Below, piece by piece: positions 1,403-35,806 of a stretch of DNA of 35,806 bases. The position numbers and the translations under genes are program-made. Where the stretch lies: positions 1-35,806 of the forward strand of contig JAGHUI010000009.1 of assembly GCA_018064885.1 (NCBI GenBank), written 5' to 3'. How positions within the stretch are numbered: the first letter of the stretch is position 1; each line of letters begins with the position of its first letter. The DNA comes from Candidatus Minthosoma equi. Lineage in GTDB: Bacteria > Bacteroidota > Bacteroidia > Bacteroidales > Bacteroidaceae. The notes beneath the pieces are model-generated. The model did no database searches and was not told where the DNA came from. It saw nothing but the letters and a program-made list of their open reading frames with translations.

Positions 1403-1801
1403 ATGCCTATTAAGTACAGAAAAAGCAAGATTGTCCTTGGCTACCAGGAAGGTAAGCCAACAGTATTCAAGGCCCAGCAGATCAGCTACGGCACACTTGG
1501 CCTTGACAAGCTCGTAGCAGAAATTGCACACGCTGAGGGCGTGAACGAGACACAGACGCTCTCTGTCATCACTGCGCTCGTGAACCGTATCGCTCACTAC
1601 GTTGAGCTTGGCTACGGAGTGCGTGTGGGCGACCTCGGCAGCTTCAAGCTCCAGATGAACGCTAAGTGCACCAAGACGAAGGAGGAGGCGACTGCCGATA
1701 CCATCAAGCGCTTCCGCGTGAACTTCCGTCCGGGCAAGAAGCTTCAGGATGTGACTAAGACTGTCACCGTGAGCGACTATGAAACACTTGATGCGGAGTA
1801 G
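1403..1801 (+). CDS. HU-related DNA-binding protein
   Basis: A 132-residue basic protein of the Bacteroidetes HU-related (histone-like) family. The N-terminal 20 residues are an extension (MPIKYRKSKI). The HU fold follows: helices with LVAEIAHAEGVNETQTLSVITALVNRI at about 36-58, then the strand segment VRVGDLGSFKLQ at about 68-79, matching the HU G-x-x-F-P region. A C-terminal basic stretch has KRFRVNFRPGKKL. It is longer than classic HU (about 90 residues) because of the end extensions, as is usual for this subfamily. It probably bends or coats DNA. A terminator lies directly after the stop. Confidence 0.85.
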   Translation: MPIKYRKSKIVLGYQEGKPTVFKAQQISYGTLGLDKLVAEIAHAEGVNETQTLSVITALVNRIAHYVELGYGVRVGDLGSFKLQMNAKCTKTKEEATADTIKRFRVNFRPGKKLQDVTKTVTVSDYETLDAE

Positions 1802-2698: not shown

Positions 2699-2729
2699 TT
2701 GACAAGGGGTGTTAGATTTCGTAACTTTG
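2699..2729 (+). promoter_or_regulatory. luxS promoter
   Basis: TTG (2699-2701), a 20-base spacer, then TAACTTTG (2722-2729). Transcription would begin around 2736, which rules out the GTG at 2709 as the luxS start and leaves a leader of about 50 bases. Confidence 0.75.
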
Positions 2730-2786
2730 CACTTGAAAACAATTCACAATCATTTCAAAAACAACGCATATCAATACACTCTATCT

Positions 2787-3302
2787 ATGGATCTCATTCC
2801 TTCTTTCCAAGTTGACCACACCAATCTTCATCCGGGCATTTACATCTCACGCCGCGACACAGTGGGCGGCGAGTCGGTGACAACTTACGACATCCGCATG
2901 ACTTCGCCTAATCAGGAGCCAGCTCTTGCGCCTTCTGCCATCCACACCATTGAGCATATTGTTGCCACTTACCTGCGCAATGATGAGGAATGGAAGGATC
3001 GCATAATCTATTGGGGACCTATGGGATGTCTCACAGGAAACTATCTCATCATGAAGGGCGAGTGGTCGTGCGAGGAGGTTCGTCAGCTGATGATCCGCGC
3101 TTTCCAGTATGTCGTTGACTATGATACTGAGGTGCCTGGCACTACGCCTGCAACCTGCGGCAACTACCTGTTGCACGATCTGCCTATGGCGAAGTGGGAA
3201 TCTGCCAGATACGTTGACCGTCTGAAAAACAATTTCTGCTCTGAGTACAACGGCTACGAGCGTCCGCAGGATGCCACAGGCCTCGTCTTCCACGATGCTT
3301 AG
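2787..3302 (+). CDS. luxS: S-ribosylhomocysteine lyase LuxS
   Basis: A 171-residue enzyme that splits S-ribosylhomocysteine into homocysteine and DPD, the precursor of autoinducer-2, as part of the activated methyl cycle. Visible landmarks: the metal-binding HTIEH motif (His53, Glu56, His57), GPMGC with Cys81 in the place of the catalytic cysteine, and TCGNYLLHDL with Cys124 as third metal ligand. The substrate-side segment SRRDTVGGESVTTYDIRM is also typical. The start at 2787 (MDLIPSF) matches the family N-terminus; the longer GTG-initiated frame would include the promoter. It appears monocistronic. Downstream is a structured repeat (3351-3472) rather than a simple terminator. Confidence 0.95.
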   Translation: MDLIPSFQVDHTNLHPGIYISRRDTVGGESVTTYDIRMTSPNQEPALAPSAIHTIEHIVATYLRNDEEWKDRIIYWGPMGCLTGNYLIMKGEWSCEEVRQLMIRAFQYVVDYDTEVPGTTPATCGNYLLHDLPMAKWESARYVDRLKNNFCSEYNGYERPQDATGLVFHDA

Positions 3303-3350
3303 CCTTTGGGACGTCAGACGCTCAAAAAAAAGACAAGATCAAAACACTTA

Positions 3351-3472
3351 CATTTTCATCTTTATTCAGGTCTTGACTCGTCAAGTCCTGGCATCTACGA
3401 GCACCAATTTTCCTTGCAAATCCAGAAGGACTTGCAGATAAAATTGATACTCATAGATGCTGGATGAAAATG
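3351..3472. repeat. Structured multi-hairpin element, copy 1
   Basis: A closed arrangement of three helices. The outer stem is CATTTTCATC (3351-3360) with GATGAAAATG (3463-3472), perfect over 10 pairs. A short hairpin lies at 3368-3389 (CTTGA-CTCG-TCAAG flanked by AGG and CCT with one T/T mismatch). A long hairpin pairs 3392-3423 with 3428-3459 at 25 of 32 positions. Five of the seven mismatches would be G-U pairs in a minus-strand RNA, but only one in a plus-strand RNA. The same architecture with different sequence recurs in inverted orientation at 4076-4205. The rest of 3303-3574 holds no gene. Confidence 0.75.
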
Positions 3473-3574
3473 CAAGACAAAATATGCTGAAGCAAAAAAT
3501 GTGCTGCGCATAAAAAACAAAGCTCTTACTACCCCATCCTACCCATACATGGAGAACAGAGCATGGCGGTGAAA

Positions 3575-4024
3575 TCAGAACGCTGTGATTGTATTGTCTG
3601 AACGATCGTAATAGAATTTGTGAATGACAACTTTCGGATAGGCGTGAAAATTGACTAACATACCAATAGGAAATCCCGTTCCAAGCATATACGAGAACAA
3701 TTGCTGGTATTCTTTAGACGAGAGATTCTCTATTGCCTTACATTCTATTATCACATTTCCTCTTTCACGAGGAATCATCAAATCCATCTTCAAATAAGAA
3801 TCCATGACATGCCCTCTGAAGACAGGATGGTGCTGGTATTCTTTGATGCCCTTTATTCCTGATTGCTCTAATGCTATCATCAAAGCCTCCTGATACAAGA
3901 ATTCTGGCATCCCTTGTGGGAGTTCATTATGAACATCTTGAATAACGCCAATAATGTCATAAACATATTTCTGAAGCTGAATCTTCAAACTTGGATCAAA
4001 AATTTCTTTCTGCTTGATTAACAT
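3575..4024 (-). CDS. GxxExxY family protein (PD-(D/E)XK nuclease-like)
   Basis: A 149-residue protein of the GxxExxY family. The name motif is present as GMPEFLY (about residues 38-44). The core resembles a PD-(D/E)XK nuclease: an acidic residue in YLKMDLMI (about 76-83), then VIIECKAIE (about 91-99) supplying the E-x-K pair, then a helix with EYQQLFSYM. Nuclease activity is inferred from the fold family, not shown; cellular role unknown. No signal peptide. The gene is flanked on both sides by inverted copies of the same structured element (3351-3472 and 4076-4205), suggesting the unit may move or be processed as a whole. No clear promoter box was found upstream; CTCGCTTTG near 4047-4055 is a poor match. 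Confidence 0.85.
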   Translation of the reverse strand: MLIKQKEIFDPSLKIQLQKYVYDIIGVIQDVHNELPQGMPEFLYQEALMIALEQSGIKGIKEYQHHPVFRGHVMDSYLKMDLMIPRERGNVIIECKAIENLSSKEYQQLFSYMLGTGFPIGMLVNFHAYPKVVIHKFYYDRSDNTITAF

Positions 4025-4075
4025 ATTGACATTTAATTTTTTATCGCAAAGCGAGATTTTTAGATCGTATTTTGT

Positions 4076-4205
4076 CTTTTATGGGTTCCAGGATGTTTAT
4101 GATGATTAAAATATCTGAAAGGCACGAAGGACTTGCAAGGATTTTAAGCATCAGAAACATCCAAGGAATTGACATCGTCAATACCTTAACAGGAACCAAT
4201 AAAAG
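4076..4205. repeat. Structured multi-hairpin element, copy 2 (inverted relative to copy 1)
   Basis: The outer stem pairs 4076-4089 with 4192-4205 (13 of 14). A long hairpin pairs 4091-4112 with 4141-4162 (20 of 22). A short hairpin pairs 4163-4173 with 4177-4187 (10 of 11: ATTGAC-ATC-GTCAAT flanked by AAGG and CCTT). Read on the minus strand, its order (short then long hairpin) and several motifs match copy 1: GGT-x-TTGAC, GTCAA or TCAA, CCTTGCAA-R-TCC, CAGATA and CTGG. Stem sequences differ between copies while pairing is kept. The small open frame across it (4072-4257) is not credible as a gene. Confidence 0.75.
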
Positions 4206-4246
4206 ATATTTTGATCCTACCTATAAAAACATGGCAGGCATCAATT

Positions 4247-5443
4247 TCAGCCTTTGACAGCTTTCTCCAGACGCTGGAGGGCTTCGGTGATTGTGGCGCG
4301 CGGACAGCCGACATTGAGGCGCATGAAGCCTTCGCCCTGCTCACCGAACATGAAGCCAGGATTGACAGCAATGCCGGCTTTCTCGATGAAGAGCTTGAGA
4401 AGGTCGTCGTGGGAAAGACCAAGCTCACGACAGTCGAGCCACACAAGATAGCTTGCCTGAGGACGGATAGGACGTATCTGAGGAAGGTGCTCTGCACAAT
4501 AGTCAATGAGGTAATCAATGTTGCCCTCAAGATATTCAAGCATCTCCTTGCGCCATGGCTCACCCTGCGAGAGAGCTGCAACGGTGGCTACAGGAGCAAA
4601 CATGTGAGCCTCACAGAACTCGTTTGCCTCCATCCAGCTGAAGAAAGACTCACGCAACTCCGGGTTTGGCACGATAACCCATGAAGACACGACACCAGCC
4701 ATGTTGAACGTCTTGGAAGGTGCGGAGAACGTGATGCTCACCTCTGCTGCTTCTGGACATACGGTAGCAAAAGGAATGTGCTTGTTGCCATAGAGAGCGA
4801 GGTCGCAATGGATTTCATCGCTGACAACGATAAGGTTGTGCTCCTTGGCAAAGACAGCAAGGCGCTGAAAAGTTTCCTTATCCCAAGTGACACCTACAGG
4901 GTTGTGAGGGTTGGCAAGCACAAGCAGGCGGCATTTGTCATCGCATTTACGCTCAAGGTCATCAAAGTCCATGAGGTAAGGAAGCTGGGAAGGATCCTTG
5001 GCATAAGCATCAAGATTTTCGATGAGAGGATTCCAAACAACCTCGTAGTTATTGCCCTTAGGCGTGTTGAAGAACGGATGATACACAGGAGGCTGAACAA
5101 TAACCTTATCGCCTGGCTTGAGGAATTTGTTGATGACCATAGCAAGTCCTCTGACGACACCTGGAACGTATGTTATCCATTCACGCTGCACTTCCCACTG
5201 GTGATGATCCTTGATCCATCCGAGAACTGTAGGCCACCACTCGTCGGGATCGCAAGTGTAGCCGAGCACAGGACTTTGCTCCACCTGATTGATGATTGCT
5301 TCCTTAATGAAAGATGGTGTCTCCCAATCCATGTCTGCCACCCACATGGCGAGGAGATCTGGATTGCCGAAAATACGGTCGAGGCGATCCCACTTGAAGG
5401 AATGAGTGCCACGGCGGTTTATTACTTTTGAAAAATCGTACAT
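4247..5443 (-). CDS. PatB/MalY-type PLP-dependent C-S lyase (aminotransferase fold I)
   Basis: A 398-residue fold-type I PLP enzyme close to PatB/MalY putative C-S lyases, which release sulfur compounds from cystathionine, cysteine or related substrates by beta-elimination. Motifs: MWVADMDWETP (33-43) typical of the MalY group, NPHNPVG (178-184), SDEIHCDL (208-215) with the PLP-ring Asp, and SAPSKTFNMAG with the Schiff-base Lys244. C-terminal RLNVGCPR carries the carboxylate-binding Arg. Length is normal. It lies 40 bases after the Pif1-like gene on the same strand, probably one transcript; the gap is nearly filled by an AAAACG-type repeat that forms its untranslated leader. Exact substrate cannot be told from sequence. 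Confidence 0.88.
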   Translation of the reverse strand: MYDFSKVINRRGTHSFKWDRLDRIFGNPDLLAMWVADMDWETPSFIKEAIINQVEQSPVLGYTCDPDEWWPTVLGWIKDHHQWEVQREWITYVPGVVRGLAMVINKFLKPGDKVIVQPPVYHPFFNTPKGNNYEVVWNPLIENLDAYAKDPSQLPYLMDFDDLERKCDDKCRLLVLANPHNPVGVTWDKETFQRLAVFAKEHNLIVVSDEIHCDLALYGNKHIPFATVCPEAAEVSITFSAPSKTFNMAGVVSSWVIVPNPELRESFFSWMEANEFCEAHMFAPVATVAALSQGEPWRKEMLEYLEGNIDYLIDYCAEHLPQIRPIRPQASYLVWLDCRELGLSHDDLLKLFIEKAGIAVNPGFMFGEQGEGFMRLNVGCPRATITEALQRLEKAVKG

Positions 5444-35648: not shown

Positions 35649-35806
35649 ATATCAAAGGTTTCGTTACTTTTTGTAGTTCTACTGGATTTTGTATAAAAGT
35701 GCCCTATCGGGCCAATTGAAAAAACAAAAAAATCAACCATAAAAAACATAAAAAAACAGTTCAATTATTGTTTTTTCTTGTTTTTGTTCTGTTTCTTCAA
35801 TGTTTT

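Follow-up and report, generated by a model that had tools for sequence, protein, structure and literature searches.

A GxxExxY nuclease gene between inverted, folded DNA elements: a candidate REP-like repeat system in Bacteroidales

Among the repeat systems described in bacteria, the one that most resembles the arrangement reported here is the REPtron, in which the gene for an HUH/Y1 enzyme, TnpA-REP (also known as RAYT, REP-associated tyrosine transposase), lies between inverted repetitive extragenic palindromes (REP, or REPIN when paired), non-coding copies are dispersed, and the hairpins are proposed to act in single-stranded DNA. A second model is given by insertion sequences (IS) and miniature inverted-repeat transposable elements (MITEs), in which terminal inverted repeats bound a single gene and short copies without the gene have the same ends. 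This report deals with a stretch of 35,806 nucleotides (the window) from Candidatus Minthosoma equi (assembly GCA_018064885.1, contig JAGHUI010000009.1), where a gene of the GxxExxY family, encoding a nuclease of the PD-(D/E)XK type, sits between two composite multi-hairpin elements, called e1 and e2. Elements of this kind form a real, recurrent and shape-selected system around a clade of GxxExxY genes. The system is most probably DNA-level and REP-like and, by analogy, is best read as one that may work like RAYT and REP with an unrelated enzyme.

The likeness to the REPtron lies in the enzyme gene placed between inverted palindromic elements, in hairpins with a proposed action in single-stranded DNA, and in dispersed non-coding copies, present here in a genome labeled G136, with none for e1 or e2 in the window's genome. 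Unlike the REPtron, the flanked enzyme is a PD-(D/E)XK nuclease and not an HUH/Y1 protein, the elements are composite and 113–141 nt long, against 20–40 bp for REP (PMC3733652, in excerpt), and e1 and e2, the two that were inspected, have no GT[AG]G foot, a feature that TnpA-REP subclass 2.6 is also said to lack. The simple clade of GxxExxY units, described below, shares with IS and MITEs the terminal inverted repeats around one gene and the short gene-less copies, whereas the unit holds no DDE transposase, has no recognised target duplication, and the ends of two units (L328 and L329) carry covarying hairpins. The PINSR of Prevotella intermedia is likewise a dispersed and highly amplified non-coding repeat with a mobiliser not known, but it is a 188-bp intergenic repeat reported without terminal inverted repeats (PMC4755523, in excerpt, compared by description only). 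The window protein is a member of both TIGR04256 (GxxExxY) and PF13366 (PDDEXK_3), for which the accessible portions of the literature gave no function, flanking element or mobility; the predicted fold of GxxExxY is like that of Cas4 and RecB-type nucleases and of Hjc resolvases. Nor is the arrangement described in the accessible portions of the open-access literature on GxxExxY, PF13366, REP, RAYT, MITE, or palindromes in Bacteroidetes and Prevotella, and the findings together point to a nuclease-centred repeat system not described so far.

The gene and the two elements have the following parts, the elements being defined by their DNA folds or, where only "fold" is given, by folding in general:

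3575..4024, minus strand: GxxExxY/PDDEXK_3 gene, 149 aa (profile matches and alignment; AlphaFold pLDDT 92)
3347..3476, minus strand (outward strand): e1, the downstream composite element (fold)
3463..3476, minus strand: 5' arm of the e1 outer stem, paired with 3347-3360 (fold)
3347..3360, minus strand: 3' arm of the e1 outer stem (fold)
3391..3460, minus strand: long hairpin of e1 (DNA fold)
3367..3390, minus strand: short hairpin of e1, with an A.A mismatch (DNA fold)
4073..4208, plus strand (outward strand): e2, the upstream composite element, borders corrected (fold)
4075..4089, plus strand: 5' arm of the e2 outer stem, paired with 4192-4206 (DNA fold)
4192..4206, plus strand: 3' arm of the e2 outer stem (DNA fold)
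4091..4162, plus strand: long hairpin of e2 (DNA fold; paired changes in the homologous copy L012)
4163..4187, plus strand: short hairpin of e2 (DNA fold)

The protein encoded between the elements matches PF13366 at 1e-24 (87.6 bits, cut-off 22) and TIGR04256 at 2.2e-24 (86.1 against 35 bits, above the curated cut-off), and residues D81, E94 and K96 are invariant in an eight-row alignment of GxxExxY proteins; the nuclease fold, the acidic residue and the E-x-K motif that together mark PD-(D/E)XK enzymes are all found in it. No other open reading frame (ORF) of 80 aa or more fits entirely into the space that separates e1 from e2, and neither a Y1/HUH nor a DDE transposase is encoded there.

The elements, one on each side of the gene and 130–136 nt long, are both present, which bears out the claim of an initial annotation of this DNA that two inverted multi-hairpin elements flank the gene. 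Folded as RNA, e1 (3343-3480) has z-scores of -11.9 (minus strand) and -8.5 (plus strand), none of 200 shuffles being as good; as DNA it reaches -36.1 kcal/mol (minus) versus -29.6 (plus). Its outer stem measures 14 bp, and its mismatches do turn into G-U pairs on the minus strand, as had been noted. The outer stem first assigned to e2 (4104-4116/4204-4216) is a competing register: the optimal DNA fold closes at 4075-4089/4192-4206 with z-scores of -9.8 (plus) and -9.2 (minus). Taken as 4100-4220, close to the earlier borders, e2 folds poorly (z -2.9 plus, -1.7 minus). Read outward from the gene, both elements present stem, long hairpin, short hairpin and stem in the same order, and are therefore inverted around it; with 53% identity, they agree more in plan than in letters.

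A structural descriptor for composites, applied to the plus strand of the window, found e1, e2 and one match within an ORF, where three shuffles gave 1, 1 and 0 matches; in 400 kb of the window's genome it found 13 matches in ORFs and one outside. The latter is a GC-rich 238-nt tandem array (L087:14547-14784) that can fold as a composite and lies directly upstream of another GxxExxY gene (C50). The pattern CCTTGCAARTCC has two other matches in the genome (L004, L005), both without such an element and judged to be chance.

Recurrence near GxxExxY genes, which the initial annotation had proposed as a check, was found. Samples of 201, 393 and 399 genomes were searched for relatives, which occur at E 1e-10 in 48 of the 201 genomes of the family sample (Bacteroidales), and the flanks of 124 distinct loci were read, 95 of which are listed; L069 and L072, non-coding matches unlike the others, were not counted. 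Among the listed loci, composites are mostly 114–137 nt long and stand about 30–320 nt from the gene; the closest relatives found, L041 (74% protein identity) and L042/L043 (66%), have the same plan in a different sequence just 3' of the gene. Composite elements were scored, partly by inspection, at 16 of 53 tree loci (L208 and L046 added by inspection, L134 and L216 retained although imperfect), often unrelated in sequence and alike in plan. In the midpoint-rooted tree these loci sit, with three that lack an element, in two clades belonging to one superclade (36 rows, support 100/99), and the composite label needs 5 changes on the tree versus 14 with shuffled labels.

The third, sister clade of the superclade consists of simple units, with inverted repeats of 32–71 nt in 16 of 17 loci that end, in the loci read by eye, in a small GC hairpin. 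More generally, upstream and downstream flanks have inverted sequence in common at 35 of 52 GxxExxY loci (5/7 and 5/11 in the composite clades, 16/17 in the simple clade and 9/17 in the outgroup; L046, with too short a flank, was omitted), compared with 6/220 and 4/220 for random-ORF controls, one of the six being itself a GxxExxY gene. Mismatched pairs of outgroup flanks also match in 10 of 120 cases, so AT-rich flanks contribute some noise. Homologous elements stand downstream of the gene in G136 (L099:7931-8066, L100:8273-8402) and upstream of it in another genome, G129 (L101:8154-8284), and thus seem to switch sides. Unfiltered local folding around GxxExxY loci returned an excess of chance junctions and was unusable.

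The claim that structure is kept by compensatory change also held. Neither of the two outcomes that the initial annotation had named as refuting was obtained, and its interpretation is supported in part. Because a MAFFT alignment over all families was misaligned, covariation was tallied within families only, and these are small. In the family of L099 down, L100 down and L101 up, 13 of 47 pairs changed together (9 of 140 cells broken); in that of L209 up and down and L211 down, 12 of 49 (9 of 144 broken); and in that of L013 up and down, 7 of 49 (0 of 98 broken). Three further families in G136 (B, C and D), at 92–96% identity, have one changed pair each and are nearly uninformative. For e2, the homologue L012 in a genome of the same genus (75% identity over ~129 nt, E 2.9e-15) differs on both sides in 3 of 28 pairs and has paired changes from TGATG/CATCA to TGTCG/CGACA in the long hairpin; its 4.8-kb contig (L094), which reads N in part, yielded no GxxExxY gene. 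The two end copies of the simple unit L329 also differ by paired changes (CGCACC-CAA-GGTGCG versus CGCGCC-TAA-GGCGCG). Judged from these alignments, the shape of the elements is kept by selection through compensatory change within families.

As to the strand on which they fold, 16 elements flanking GxxExxY genes (L069, L072, L134, L099, L100 and L052 omitted) and 27 T-box-linked elements of G136 gave a set of 43, reduced to 27 that are non-redundant. By the RNA energy model, on which the loop and G-U counts are based, these have 75 G-U pairs on the outward strand versus 37 on the inward one, and 23 of the 27 fold more stably on the outward strand; DNA parameters also favour it for e1 and e2. 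GNA triloops, which are stable in DNA, account for 13 of the 73 outward-strand hairpin loops, against 0.7% in shuffles and none inward. Loops of the cGNNAg type number 10 of 73 (1.2% in shuffles, 1 inward), and those of the gCNNGc type, a motif that reads alike on both strands, 11 of 73 (0.3% in shuffles, 9 inward). The latter two belong to a group of four tetraloop motifs, stable in DNA, that the title of Nakano et al. 2002 (cited in PMC2984261) lists.

At many loci with composites of the second clade (composite II) a box near GTTTTTNNNGTTTTTG flanks the palindrome on the same strand, in many cases on both sides of the stem; elsewhere, including the window, it has diverged. The corresponding stretches of the window are:

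3493..3518, minus strand: inner T-rich stretch that separates the gene from e1 and holds a small hairpin (sequence; similar stretches in relatives)
4037..4061, plus strand: inner T-rich stretch that separates the gene from e2 and holds a small hairpin (sequence; similar stretches in relatives)
3323..3346, minus strand: outer T-rich stretch past e1, diverged from the box consensus (sequence)

When a 17-nt version of the box was counted with at most one mismatch in ten genomes that have GxxExxY, G136 gave 68 matches versus 1 for the reversed pattern used as control, and smaller excesses appeared in G032 (17 to 1) and in the window's own genome, G000 (14 to 6). Over 1.148 Mb of G136 (about 48% of ~2.4 Mb) there are 74 boxes versus 9 reversed, and at 27 of the 74 a palindrome of 113–141 nt ends at the box. 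Among 740 random positions 18 had a palindrome, and the lengths of these were scattered. Where both features were scanned, over 793 kb, there are 24 box-linked composites and two GxxExxY genes, so most G136 copies are not beside such a gene.

The elements dispersed in the window's genome are of the simple family rather than the composite one. A search of the same genus with one short simple copy gave at least 19 matches in G000, 18 in G002, 19 in G018, 23 in G020 and 10 in G025, and 16 of the 45 genomes had at least one match. Not every match is a separate copy: in G000 two correspond to the ends of the GxxExxY unit there, and in G025 six fall at a tandem unit. One short copy, at 35678-35806 of the window, runs off the contig end, and several other contigs end likewise, so these copies may account for some assembly breaks in this genome. 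In G018, at least 14 equal-scoring chimeric short elements (L321, L318, L327 and others) have a foreign repeat, TTCGAACTGTATGGTTG, outside and simple GxxExxY-type ends inside.

Mobile-type behaviour, which the initial annotation had supposed, is seen in the dispersed G136 copies and in two comparisons of loci. In the window's genome a simple GxxExxY unit splits argG from argC (gap 586 bp); both genes occur in 26 of the 30 loci fetched, and of the other 25 junctions 16 measure -1 to 6 bp and nine 43–286 bp, none (0/25) with a GxxExxY gene. Junctions without the unit thus exist in relatives for argG-argC, and no target duplication was recognised by eye at the occupied one. For the window's own unit there is no empty site, as its luxS-aminotransferase junction was absent from the other 29 loci fetched. 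In the second comparison, L042 and L043 represent the same locus with the upstream element in L042 only, and the difference is bounded by TTTTTG repeats, so that the element may equally well have been lost by slippage or gained. Near argC in G025 (L330:1-900) two GxxExxY copies stand in tandem, and the first has lost an internal part of the gene, plausibly a step toward a gene-less copy. A pair of loci in G129 (L101:7142-8580 and L102:267-1687) was rejected as proof of movement because the repeat runs ~300 bp past the elements on each side; it represents one composite unit with nearly identical cores inside a longer 94.5% repeat with unexplained flanks.

Our preferred reading, to which we give slightly less than an even chance, is that these are REP-like single-stranded DNA elements with GxxExxY, a PD-(D/E)XK nuclease, as their cognate enzyme. 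The composite element would fold on its T-rich outward strand when this becomes single-stranded, for example in replication; GxxExxY, as a small Cas4-like nuclease, would recognise the branched hairpins and cut at or near the adjoining T-rich boxes; and through cutting, copies would go on moving, being exchanged or being replaced. The gene would carry two copies as its own inverted ends, while solo copies disperse elsewhere. We infer single-stranded DNA of the outward strand as the working form, although a separate outward transcript is still possible, and likewise cutting by GxxExxY and its driving of the spread; action of the nuclease on the elements makes a good hypothesis. If the nuclease does handle the ends, an enzyme with no kinship to HUH transposases would have become the centre of REP-like repeats, and recognising single-stranded DNA by its shape would be a way to disperse repeats. 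Structured ends with shape kept and sequence free give the large GxxExxY clade a concrete candidate substrate that can be tested. A stronger form, which we regard as doubtful, makes the stand-alone nuclease the sole enzyme of mobile or self-renewing branched single-stranded DNA elements, one that would read the folded ends and have given rise to the gene-less copies. Three- or four-way folded ends read by shape and not by sequence would be free to change sequence while keeping shape, and such a nuclease would be, after HUH and DDE enzymes, the third kind of enzyme to drive REP- or MITE-like repeats.

Several observations weigh against a cognate role of the nuclease. The window's own gene has no sequence common to its e1 and e2 flanks in the inverted-flank test, a DNA search of its genome found no further copy of either element, and their loops fall outside the DNA-stable classes. 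Three loci without an element (L045, L062 and L176) fall inside the composite clades, and G129 has no box excess (10 versus 11 for the reversed pattern). The match-rich genomes G002 (74% complete) and G020 (86%) are not among the GxxExxY-positive ones, possibly because they were not in those samples. The L042/L043 difference can be accounted for by slippage between direct repeats. No target duplication was recognised for any GxxExxY unit, and duplications of 8–9 bp occur only in short copies with an additional outer repeat (L327, L321, L318, L284 and L309).

Those duplicated copies lend support to a different view, unlikely but the most serious of the alternatives, in which a Bacteroidetes Y1/HUH enzyme (TnpA-REP subclass 2.6) has the elements as its atypical REPs, or a DDE transposase moves them in trans, and GxxExxY is a passenger. 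The duplications, read by eye, are of 8 bp (AATTATTT, AAAGATTT, AAAATTTT; CTATCAAT) and of 8–9 bp (AATTAAATA), and 8-bp ones were read in three of the G018 chimeras; they point to a conventional transposase for these copies. The outer repeat they bear is a different one, not seen at the GxxExxY units listed, and other short copies have no recognised duplication; a transposase may act in trans. A passenger does not explain the inverted flanks found at two thirds of GxxExxY loci (the 35/52 above). As for a Y1/HUH enzyme, a strict motif scan, run with no positive control, found no gene in the ~48% of G136 or the other loci, and a relaxed scan, also with no positive control, gave 9 ORFs that looked chance-like by eye.

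It is improbable that the elements act as RNA, either as a structured untranslated region or as a small RNA in its own right, by which GxxExxY would be guided or restrained or which it would process. Such an RNA would agree with the G-U pairs of e1, which form on the gene-sense strand, where the fold is also best, and G(CUUG)C and GNRA loops are known to stabilise RNA too; 6 of the 10 cGNNAg loops are not GNRA, however. No role in the transcript of the gene itself can account for the strand bias, because the upstream elements, whose outward strand is antisense to the gene, show it as well: there the loops stand at 12 to 0 (n=12) with the outward strand more stable in 10/12, and downstream at 12 to 1 (n=15) with 13/15 (L069, L072, L134 up and L216 omitted, seven elements added by best stem). 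For this reason, and with loops that match DNA-stable motifs, the minus-strand RNA suggested in the initial annotation is not favoured. In 793 kb of G136, moreover, the 24 box-linked composites far outnumber the two GxxExxY genes, and no Rfam family reaches its threshold over the elements.

Very unlikely, in turn, are functionless, self-correcting palindromes, in which template switching during replication keeps the arms complementary and mimics covariation. Template switching is known to perfect imperfect palindromes, and adjoining direct repeats favour slippage, as at L042/L043, but this leaves unexplained the three- or four-part plan at 113–141 nt, the GNA and cGNNAg loops confined to one strand, and the placement around GxxExxY genes. 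Least probable of all are outward-facing transcription terminators or insulators, which a long stem followed by a T-run does resemble, since only 5 of 16 placeable G136 copies (the other 11 of the 27 comprise ten at the edge of a stretch and one within an ORF) have a co-directional gene 5' of them and T-boxes flank many stems on both sides.

Searches with the window protein and its surroundings were otherwise sparse in matches. A structure search listed Cas4, restriction enzymes, resolvases, viral endonucleases and others with middling Z, only 4ic1 exceeding 8, and when profiles were searched against the sequences of solved structures no match was significant (best E 0.47). PHROGs and a plasmid search gave no match, no relative was confirmed on viral contigs, and PADLOC was marginal only (best 0.0016 among 8 members). 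No reverse transcriptase, as expected of a retron, was found among 7 scanned neighbouring proteins, one of which had no match. The only Rfam family to reach its gathering score in the window was tRNA, with none over the elements, for which the best match of a relaxed search, at E 0.011, fell far under the threshold of the family matched.

The unit occupies a convergent gap, with luxS (2709-3302, plus strand) on one side and an aminotransferase gene (4247-5443, minus strand) on the other. Elsewhere in the window's genome, a 194-aa ORF with no Pfam match (L085:3318-3899) has 56-nt inverted repeats on both sides. An HU-type gene lies near the unit of the window (1403-1801), and an ORF that appears HU-like by eye lies near the solo e2 homologue (L012:2000-2257).
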